Positions 1,999 through 32,085 of a stretch of 64,000 nucleotides of DNA are shown in pieces; position 1 is the stretch's first letter; each line of letters starts with the position of its first letter. Source of the DNA: Halorussus vallis. GTDB taxonomy: Archaea; Halobacteriota; Halobacteria; Halobacteriales; Haladaptataceae. Below the pieces are notes generated by a model. It did no database searches and was not told the origin of the DNA. It worked only from the letters and a program-made list of their open reading frames with translations. The position numbers and the translations under genes were made by a program. The stretch spans positions 1,178,001-1,242,000 of the forward strand of contig NZ_CP100000.1 of assembly GCF_024138165.1 (NCBI RefSeq). Reading direction: 5' to 3'.

Positions 1999-2228
1999 GA
2001 GAGGGTGGTAGCCGCCCCCGGTAGAAAAACCCTCGCGGTCGCGGGTGAAAGTGAAACGTGCAGAGAGAACCCGAAGCAACTCGACCTCGAAAGCGACGCG
2101 CTGACGCGGCGTGCCGCGTCAGCGCGGGGCGCAAGGTGACACCCACCACCAGAGACTGCCAGTGCCACGTTCCACCGGTAAGCTCGGTGAGACGTTCAGC
2201 AGCGAGCGCCCTTCCGACTAACTGACGG

Positions 2229-2359
2229 GTGGGACTGAAAGGGGCCGCCCGCTCGCGTTTACCGTGGTCGCCTCAGTGACCTCTATTCGAGGAGGGCCGG
2301 AGGCCCGACTGGAATATGTCGCTGAGCGACCGCGAGCGGGCAGGGGCTTTCGAGGCGGT
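2229..2359 (+). ncRNA. Structured repeat element, copy A (candidate RNA or intergenic repeat)
   Basis: The ends are conserved with a second copy at 31629-31755 on the other strand: a left end GGGACTGAAAGGGGCC then GCCCGCTCGCG, and a right end CGCGAGCGGGC then GGGGCTTTC. The ends pair (GAAAG with CTTTC, GCCCGCTCGCG with CGCGAGCGGGC). Inside, GGTCGCCTCAGTGAC at 2267-2281 pairs with GTCGCTGAGCGACC at 2318-2331, and GGGCC/GGCCC forms a hairpin near 2294-2306. The inner helix sequence differs in copy B but still pairs. It may be an RNA or a mobile palindromic element; no function is known to me. Confidence 0.6.
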
Positions 2360-2458
2360 CAGAGTCTTAGTTACGGTAATCATCGCAGTTCGTGATGGCG
2401 TGAGGGACGTGTTCGGGACTACATCGAATCGAGAGGGAGGAGGAGAACAGAAAATCTC
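2360..2458. other. Remainder of helicase-orc1 intergenic region
   Basis: Together with 1999-2228 this is the non-coding sequence flanking repeat element copy A. I see no convincing open reading frame or RNA gene here apart from the element itself. Confidence 0.5.
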
Positions 2459-3688
2459 CTAAATCCCTAGGTCCGCAATCCGAGAGTCCCGGTTCAGCAC
2501 CTTCTTGACGATTTCGGGCTCTTCGAGCAGGCGGTGCATCGTGTGTACCCCGCGTCCTCGGCCCCGACCCCGCGTCTCGGAGTTGATGACGTTGAGGAAG
2601 TCCTGCTCTTGAAGAATCTCCTGGACGCGGCGCTCCGAGAGGGCGTCCATGTCGAGTTCGCGGGCGATGGTCTGGTACTGCTTGTATATCTGCTGGGTCG
2701 GGAACTGCTCCTGATGGCGGTTCTCGGTGAGTACCGTGAGCGCCAGCAGGATGGCCTTCGCCTGGGTCGGCGCGCCCTCGATTAGTTCGGCGAAGCGGTC
2801 GGCCTCGGTCTTCTCCTTGGCGGCGTAGACGTGGTGTTCGGTTACCTCGGTGTCGTCGTCCTTGGTCGCGATGCGGCCCGCGTTCCGGAGGATGTCGATG
2901 GCCTTGCGGGCGTCGCCGTGTTCCTGGGCGGCGAGCGCGGCGGTGAGCGGGATGGCGTCGTCCGAGAGCACGCCGTCGCGGAAGGCGTCGGCGCGGTTCT
3001 GGAGGATGTCGATGAGTTGGTGGGCGTCGTAGGGCGGGAAGACCAGTTCGTCGTGGGCGAAACTCGACTTGACGCGCTCGTTGAGTTCGTCGGGGAAGTC
3101 TATCTTGTTCGAGATGCCGACGATGCCGATAGTCGAGTCGGTGATGCGGCGATTCTCGCCGGCCCGTGAGAGTTTCCGGAGCACCTCGTCGTCCTCCAGC
3201 ATGTCTATCTCGTCGAGGATGACGATGGTGACGTCGCTGGAGGTGTCGATGATGCGCCAGAGGCGGTCGTAGTAGTCGCCCGTGCCGAGGCCGCGCTGGG
3301 GGACCGTGATGCCCGTCTCGTTCGAGTCGTTTAGTTGGCGGCCGATCGTCTTGATGACCGACGCCTCGGTGGTCTGTTCGCCGCAGTCGATGAAGGCGGT
3401 CCGGACCCGGACGTCCTCGCGGCGGGCCTCGTCCTCGACGCGCCGGGAGACGCTTCGGGAGATGAGCGACTTGCCGGTGCCGGTCTTGCCGAAGATGAAC
3501 AGGTGGGTCGGCTCTTGGCCGAAGATGGCGGGGTTCAGCGCCTCGGCGACCTTCTGCATGTGCTCGTCGCGGCCCACGATTCGGTTCGGGCCGGGCAAGT
3601 GGGAGATGCGCAGCAGGTCCTCGTCCGCGAAGATCGGTTCGTCGTAGCGAAAGAGAGGGTCGCGTTCGACTGTCTCGTCGGAAACCAT
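2459..3688 (-). CDS. orc1: Orc1/Cdc6 family replication initiator
   Basis: This is an AAA+ origin-binding protein of 409 residues. Walker A GKTGTGKS lies at residues 67-74, and Walker B ending in DEID lies at about 159-162. A sensor-type region follows, then a C-terminal winged-helix domain that contains an Arg/Gly run (TRGRGRGRG) near the end. The start at 3688 (MVSDETVERD) is preferred over longer in-frame options because a TTTATAT box at 3714-3722 lies about 28 nt upstream and the extra N-terminal residues look non-coding. Family knowledge: archaeal Orc1/Cdc6 proteins bind origin recognition boxes and load the MCM helicase. The gene faces away from the repeat-rich region at 3730-4502, which is the usual initiator-origin arrangement. 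Which paralogue this is cannot be told from the sequence. Confidence 0.96.
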   Translation of the reverse strand: MVSDETVERDPLFRYDEPIFADEDLLRISHLPGPNRIVGRDEHMQKVAEALNPAIFGQEPTHLFIFGKTGTGKSLISRSVSRRVEDEARREDVRVRTAFIDCGEQTTEASVIKTIGRQLNDSNETGITVPQRGLGTGDYYDRLWRIIDTSSDVTIVILDEIDMLEDDEVLRKLSRAGENRRITDSTIGIVGISNKIDFPDELNERVKSSFAHDELVFPPYDAHQLIDILQNRADAFRDGVLSDDAIPLTAALAAQEHGDARKAIDILRNAGRIATKDDDTEVTEHHVYAAKEKTEADRFAELIEGAPTQAKAILLALTVLTENRHQEQFPTQQIYKQYQTIARELDMDALSERRVQEILQEQDFLNVINSETRGRGRGRGVHTMHRLLEEPEIVKKVLNRDSRIADLGI

Positions 3689-31628: not shown

Positions 31629-31755
31629 CCAGAAAGCCCCCGCCCGCTCGCGGTCGCTCTGCAGAATATCCACGCCTCGCTGACGCTCGGCGAGAATAGT
31701 TGCCTGCAGAGATGACCAAGCCCTACGGGCGCGAGCGGGCGGCCCCTTTCATCCA
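31629..31755 (-). ncRNA. Structured repeat element, copy B
   Basis: On the minus strand the element starts TGAAAGGGGCCGCCC then GCTCGCG and ends CGCGAGCGGGC then GGGGGCTTTC, matching copy A at both ends. The inner helix is CTCTGCAG with CTGCAGAG (copy A has CTCAG with CTGAG plus flanking pairs). CTATTC and GGATAT/GGAATAT are shared inner strings. This pairing with a changed sequence supports a real RNA or DNA structure. Confidence 0.6.
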
Positions 31756-31952
31756 CCCCACCGCAACCGCACCGCGACCGCCACACCCCTCCCCAGCCGA
31801 TTCCTTCGTGCCCCGGAGGGGCACTCAGTCATCCCTCGCACGAAGATGGCGCGACCCAACACCGCCGGGTCACGCCAGCGCGCGCCGGGAGGCCGGGTTA
31901 GAAGCGCTCGGTGAAACAGACCACCGAAACGCCCGGTCGACCAACCGGCAGG

Positions 31953-31974
31953 GCGGGACTGAAAGGGGGCTTTC
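31953..31974 (+). repeat. Body-less version of the structured repeat ends
   Basis: GGGACTGAAAGGGGGCTTTC contains the left end (GGGACTGAAAGGGG) of copies A and B directly joined to the right end (GGGGCTTTC), with the GC-rich stem body missing. GAAAG and CTTTC still pair as a small hairpin. Confidence 0.5.
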
Positions 31975-32085
31975 GCTTGGTCAGTTGTCGTGGTGGTAAA
32001 GGTTCTCGGCAAAATTCCTTTCCGACCAGAAACACCCCTCTCTCCGTCCGAGTCCTTATAAACGAAGCCGCCCGACTATAGTGAT

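Follow-up and report, generated by a model that had tools for sequence, protein, structure and literature searches.

Two copies of a structured repeat in the window

The window, a stretch of 64,000 nucleotides from Halorussus vallis (NZ_CP100000.1, positions 1,178,001 to 1,242,000), contains two copies of a structured repeat, copy A on the forward strand and copy B on the reverse strand (Table 1). An orc1/cdc6-like gene, identified from its sequence only, occupies positions 2466-3500, with its 3′ end ~0.1 kb from copy A. Both copies were present as described in the initial annotation, although the spans given there took in a few flanking bases outside the cores. The 22-nt left end occurred exactly twice in the window, versus 0 expected from shuffles. 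In the genome, the left end TGAAAGGGGCCGCCCGCTCGCG occurred 66 times at ≤3 mismatches, versus once for the pattern read backwards. The inner helices named for the two copies do form: GGTCGC/GCGACC and TCAGTGAC/GTCGCTGA with a bulged C in copy A, and CTCTGCAGG/TCTGCAGAG in copy B, continuing into TATTC/GAATA or GGATA. Predicted minimum free energies were -71.2 kcal/mol (copy A) and -73.9 kcal/mol (copy B). The left end of copy B is abutted by a second, independent structured repeat, M1 (CGCGCGCTGGCG..CGAGGGATGA..TCGGTTGGGGAGGGTGTGG), which is present in high copy number and occurs without the core at other sites in relatives.

Table 1. Coordinates of the two copies, their parts and related features. 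Locations are window positions unless a contig or element part is named.
Feature	Location	Strand	Remark
Copy A, type I core, TGAAAGGGG...GGGGCTTTC	2236..2351	+	
Copy A, P0 5′ arm GAAAG (partner CTTTC, 2347-2351)	2237..2241	+	Also seen class-wide
Copy A, unpaired conserved G/G loop (G-runs)	2242-2244 and 2345-2346	+	
Copy A, P1 5′ arm CCGCCCGCTCGC (partner 2332-2344, bulged A at 2342)	2245..2256	+	P1 covaries class-wide
Copy A, P3 5′ arm GGTCGCCTCAGTGAC (partner 2318-2331)	2266..2280	+	Predicted fold and covariation
Copy A, asymmetric internal loop	2281-2283 and 2317	+	
Copy A, P4 terminal hairpin TATTC..GAATA, cGGAg triloop	2284..2316	+	Predicted fold
Copy A, left arm, degenerate 33-nt repeat unit ending GGGTGGGAC	2190..2235	+	
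Copy A, right arm, degenerate ~65-nt repeat unit starting at the CTTTCGAGGCGGTC end of the element	2352..2412	+	
Copy B, type I core (P2 mini-hairpin GCCC-GTA-GGGC at 31730-31720)	31632..31751	-	
M1, second independent structured repeat	31760..31890	-	Abuts left end of copy B
Core-deleted remnant GGACTGAAAGGGGGCTTTCGC	31956..31976	+	Sole such form in the genome at ≤3 mismatches
Inserted palindromic modules, L015, L035, L058, L059	In P1		
Inserted palindromic modules, L030, L042	After P3		
Inserted palindromic modules, L016, L018, L033, L046, L047, L107	Left flank		
Head-to-head pairs, G000:C1	2430674/2430912, 3118859/3119281, 3370807/3371121, 3856211/3856646, 2056590/2056917		
OB-fold gene units in the same genome	C1:3226304 and C4:75114		With L042 and L116, respectively

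A family of repeats with two interiors in one frame

A covariance model (R1) built from 51 copies of the same genome returned ~67 type I copies and 11 lower-scoring ones. Copies A and B are two of the ~78 in this Halorussus genome, and the observation is much larger than first reported. Read along the plus strand, the type I layout is GGGAC TGAAAG GGG, P1 (12 bp), P2 (a mini-hairpin that is not always present), P3, an internal loop with CCC or CCAC on one side and T on the other, the P4 hairpin, P1′ and GGG CTTTCGAG, and the inverted ends of the family consist of GAAAG/CTTTC plus P1. Eleven copies of this genome (L100-L110) share the frame and left repeats with type I but differ in the interior, CGACGTAAGCACCGCA...GAGGAGCGCAGCGAG; this form, here called type II, was found in other genera too and has many conserved unpaired bases. 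Since two unrelated interiors occupy one frame, the frame is the constant part. Cores are mostly 114-124 nt in type I and ~110-125 nt in type II.

Across the class, covariance model matches (E ≤ 0.001, strict filters, ≤8 scored per genome) were found in 200 of 392 Halobacteria genomes, representing 61 of 86 genera. A pattern scan of ~85,000 prokaryote species returned Halobacteria alone, and the plasmids that matched by similarity were from Halorussus, Haloarcula and Haladaptatus. A viral origin was considered and rejected, with no model match in 69 viral contigs carrying the 14-mer and none in phage records. When the window was searched with Rfam at the gathering score, just one tRNA was returned, elsewhere than at the element, and at the element nothing came near the threshold of any family. 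The repeat thus matched none of the Rfam families, and no description was found in the literature searched; the initial remark that it resembles no element that could be named still holds.

Covariation of the helices

In the 51 copies from the same genome, compensatory change was present in 20 of the 42 consensus pairs. In 62 distinct class-wide copies, whose alignment was fitted to the covariance model so that the pairing numbers lean towards it (the sequences can also be read directly), two-sided change was present in 35 of 42 pairs and 96.4% of cells paired, versus 35%-42% when partners were slid by 1-3 columns; the covariation score was 0.350, versus 0.097 for shuffled and ≤0.064 for slid partners, and none of five measures was reached by any shuffle. 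The sequence of P1 differed wholly between genera, with pairing nearly always kept. Conserved features outside the helices were the asymmetric CCC/U loop and the GGG/GGG loop between P0 and P1, which was unpaired in nearly all copies. Selection on a structure, proposed when only A and B had been seen, finds strong support in the class-wide compensatory change together with these unpaired features: matches exist beyond the two copies, and the extra copies covary.

Adjusted mutual information between the two arms of P3 was 0.70. Between modules it was 0.02 (P2-P3), -0.005 (P2-P4), 0.07 (P3-P4), 0.13 (P1-P3) and 0.05 (P1-P2). The P3 arms thus predict each other whereas modules hardly do, indicating that recombination mixes modules while pairing is kept.

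Other palindromic modules, including GAGCGAAGCGAACGAGA-type hairpins, were observed at recurring sites within the element or next to it (Table 1). Degenerate tandem units lay on both sides of copies in the same genome (e.g., L017, L019, L024), ~33 nt long upstream and ~65 nt long downstream, the first part of the downstream unit being a remnant of the 3′ end of the element itself. Nested insertion was not adopted as the source of the flanking L and R repeat arrays, the unit counts of which were only weakly correlated (rho 0.23, p = 0.12).

Gene context of chromosomal copies

Using gene calls from a simple codon model, none of 73 copies in the same genome lay inside a called gene. For copies from this and other genera, the start of the 3′ neighboring gene faced the element in 83 of 119 cases, and that of the 5′ neighboring gene in 54 of 117 (Fisher p = 3e-4). 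In tandem contexts, copies were co-oriented with the downstream gene 47 times versus 20 (p = 0.0013). This orientation bias could reflect selection or targeting. Strand clustering by replichore did not exceed chance (33 runs versus 37.9, p = 0.15; 33 versus 31 in genome G176), and no convincing gene neighbor was common to the dispersed chromosomal copies in the loci compared.

A divergent OB-fold gene beside plasmid copies

Haloarcula plasmids carry a single copy, and next to it a divergently oriented gene, annotated as "SOSS complex subunit B" or hypothetical, whose 5′ end is ~0.5-0.6 kb away. The encoded protein (e.g., WP_011222351) has a C-terminal RPA/SSB-like OB fold and no recognizable catalytic domain. 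Its gene was detected by profile search in 176 of 292 Halobacteria genomes, and among the compared loci was common only to plasmid-type copies, not to dispersed chromosomal ones. A frame or element was positioned 0.4-0.9 kb 5′ of the OB gene, in divergent orientation, in 27 of 33 assessable loci, a count in which related plasmids are over-represented because these loci are the best-scoring matches, in which L276, L281 and L283 were among the loci used to build R2, and in which L282 and L304 were counted for their frame. By genus, an element of type I or II, or failing that the frame, was found at 11 of 11 loci in Haloarcula, 6 of 8 in Halorussus and 10 of 14 assessable loci in other genera. 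Where present, the frame or element was always 5′ of the OB gene and divergent from it, and when 19 of these loci were scanned for the frame, the opposite strand and the opposite side gave no hit. No recognizable element was seen at the OB genes of L277, L280, L300, L301, L307 and L313. At positions 2966-3053 of L282 (G024:C7), from a congener that lacks type I copies, the frame next to the OB gene was observed to hold a third, unrelated interior.

The OB gene was on a plasmid in every named example, and the same arrangement of gene and element was found in plasmids of Haloarcula, Haladaptatus, Halorientalis and Natrinema. Conservation in pNG500-type plasmids extended to the DNA that separates the gene from the element, and T4SS-type genes or orc1/cdc6 lay near the unit in several plasmids. 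In Natrinema (L275), the element was seen between cdc6 and the OB gene. The OB-fold gene beside L042 (G000:C1:3226304-3227146) has one in-frame TGA, and this chromosomal unit may therefore be decaying.

The folded strand and the choice between DNA and RNA

Among consensus pairs, G.T outnumbered A.C by 97 to 23, which identifies the plus strand as the folded one. In 112 distinct cores, the predicted plus-strand triloops were cGNAg in 79 of 103 cases; in DNA, d(GNA) triloops closed by C-G correspond to the GNRA loops of RNA (PMC5815330). Of 28 predicted tetraloops in the same cores, 12 were cGNNAg, 1 was GNRA and 1 was UNCG. Loops of the d(cGNNAg) type are also unusually stable in DNA.

The element had been proposed to act as RNA or cruciform. 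A symmetric cruciform is disfavored, since the wobble and loop preferences are confined to one strand. A structured RNA, transcribed by read-through or from its own promoter, serving as a noncoding RNA, mRNA stabilizer or attenuator, and spread by transposition or duplication but kept for its RNA function, is an unlikely account, though one that retains some weight. Strand-specific covariation, tandem G.A-rich internal loops and the sense bias relative to the downstream gene are all consistent with it, as are the many conserved unpaired bases of type II interiors, which are typical of RNA. However, a TATA-like motif at -45 to -15 was found in 0 of 73 copies and downstream T5 runs in 2 of 73, the loops belong to the cGNAg and GNYA types and not to GNRA or UNCG, orientation showed no bias relative to the upstream gene (63 versus 54), one congener has zero copies, and Rfam contains no match. 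Single-stranded DNA is preferred to RNA because promoter signals were absent from these copies and the loops are of a DNA-stable type. On these indirect signs, with loop and wobble statistics taken from related copies that share ancestry, the element probably folds on one strand, as single-stranded DNA.

Dispersal of the element

Copies per Halorussus genome numbered 106, 93, ~78, 55, 34, 6 and 0. Locus A is occupied in G176 by a copy at the same position and in the same orientation, whereas G274 lacks a copy there and shows a 32-bp gap; for locus B, the relatives compared had either no copy or a core-deleted remnant. These differences in copy number and site between species resemble the pattern of mobile DNA. 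Precise insertion with target duplication was not seen in the locus comparisons, in which the flanking sequences are repetitive too and an exact empty site could not be aligned, and no transposase, recombinase or relaxase gene was found beside copies. Slippage in the G-runs would explain the core-deleted forms better than enzymatic excision. Head-to-head pairs of elements within ~450 bp were recurrent (Table 1).

An ordinary MITE, that is, a deletion derivative of a DDE transposon that has GAAAG plus P1 as terminal inverted repeats, is mobilized by the transposase of that transposon and folds only as a by-product of long inverted repeats, is improbable. The inverted ends, size, intergenic location and variable copy number would suit such an element, but in the same genome the terminal 14-mer (≤1 mismatch) occurred almost exclusively at these short elements, so that no long parent was seen there. 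Unlike transposase-bound terminal repeats, P1 varies freely with pairing kept; moreover, interior helices covary, G/G mismatches are conserved and the association with the OB gene is fixed.

We regard as very improbable a purely mutational covariation, in which template switching and palindrome correction during replication make one arm a copy of its partner and structure is not under selection. The G/G loop, the U bulge and the asymmetric loop persist class-wide, although such correction should remove them, and the fourfold excess of G.T over A.C on one strand also argues against it. Consistent with correction are the discrete helix alleles, the existence of chimeras such as L029, which looks fresh and mismatched, and copy L115, in which full pairing has replaced the GGG/GGG loop to give perfectly paired GAAAGCCCC/GGGGCTTTC ends, as correction would make them. 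Least probable of all is a non-mobile chromosomal organization or insulator site (~1 per 50 kb) bound by a nucleoid protein, which would fit dispersed intergenic copies facing gene starts, but not 0-106 copies between congeners at sites that are not conserved, and which leaves the plasmid placement beside the OB gene unexplained.

Comparison with known systems

Judged by the published description, the nearest published kind is the SMRs of Haloquadratum. SMR-A of Haloquadratum walsbyi (HqIRS42/43/55) is ~110 bp long, with prominent inverted terminal repeats, ≤54 copies per genome, no transposase and a mobilization called enigmatic; SMRs are reported to insert into palindromes of PATEs/IS605 elements, and their copies to be commonly >95% identical (PMC3119063). 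The element described here shares with SMR-A its size, inverted terminal repeats, lack of a transposase, haloarchaeal host and tens of copies per genome (~78 in this genome, up to 106 in a congener). Unlike SMR-A, it sits between ordinary genes rather than in PATE/IS605 palindromes (PATEs being unannotated here), and its copies are diverse, covarying and linked to an OB-fold gene.

REPtrons combine REP elements, recognized as single strands, with a RAYT transposase (PMC3733652). The shared features are one partner-gene locus with an adjacent element, many dispersed structured copies and head-to-head pairs. In contrast to REPs, no conserved GTAG tag was seen, the conserved foot being GGGACTGAAAG, and the recurrent neighbor encodes an OB-fold protein of RPA-like type in place of a Y1 HUH nuclease; no Y1 (HUH) transposase gene was seen at the loci inspected. 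In F, Frpo is a folded single-stranded promoter upstream of ssb (PMC9849209). As with Frpo and ssi, a folded element lies upstream of a plasmid ssb-like gene, and the strand that probably folds is the template strand of that gene. Unlike those promoters, the element is also dispersed in chromosomes, and for it transfer, promoter boxes within the fold and entry as single-stranded DNA are hypothetical. Integron attC sites are single-stranded DNA hairpins with conserved structure, variable sequence and conserved outer boxes. The element resembles attC in all three respects, but its fold is branched, and cassette arrays and an association with an integrase were not seen.

Interpretation and significance

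The favored reading, to which we give about an even chance, is that the element is a single-strand-folded structure, probably of single-stranded DNA, belonging to a plasmid module, and that non-autonomous mobile repeats have spread from it. The plus strand of these ~115-nt repeats (GGGACTGAAAG...CTTTCGAG) is under selection to form P0 and P1 separated by a G-run loop, P2 where present, and then P3 and P4 with an asymmetric loop between them. Folding as single-stranded DNA, the element would act on plasmids while their DNA is single-stranded, for which Frpo upstream of ssb in F (PMC9849209) and relaxosomes with OB-fold helpers (PMC12614216) are parallels. The hairpin would serve a plasmid module with a single-stranded DNA-binding protein during transfer or replication, in a role comparable to that of single-stranded promoters, ssi or oriT hairpins. 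Chromosomal copies, including A and B, would be non-autonomous mobile derivatives moved in trans by some enzyme, and modules would then be exchanged between copies such that both arms of each helix stay matched. Against this reading stand the lack of a transposase, recombinase or relaxase gene beside copies, an OB protein with no recognizable catalytic domain, the OB genes at which no element was recognized, and the co-orientation with the downstream gene, for which a purely neutral mobile element would have no need.

More tentatively, an RPA-like single-stranded DNA-binding protein and a divergent single-stranded DNA hairpin of conserved structure may form a conserved two-part plasmid module, an archaeal counterpart of Frpo/ssi/oriT signals. 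The hairpin would have moved from there into chromosomes and, as a mobile repeat of a new, partner-dependent class, risen to some hundred copies, with helices that covary and are exchanged as modules by recombination. The element itself is best placed among structured non-autonomous repeats, and a larger novelty may lie in the plasmid module.

The family is carried in most sampled haloarchaeal genera and constitutes a rare natural data set for a covarying structure that is apparently tuned to DNA, not RNA. It is a candidate for the missing cis signals of archaeal plasmids (transfer origin, single-strand promoter or origin), with the partner gene named, and could help to explain the movement of the enigmatic small mobile repeats found in halophiles.
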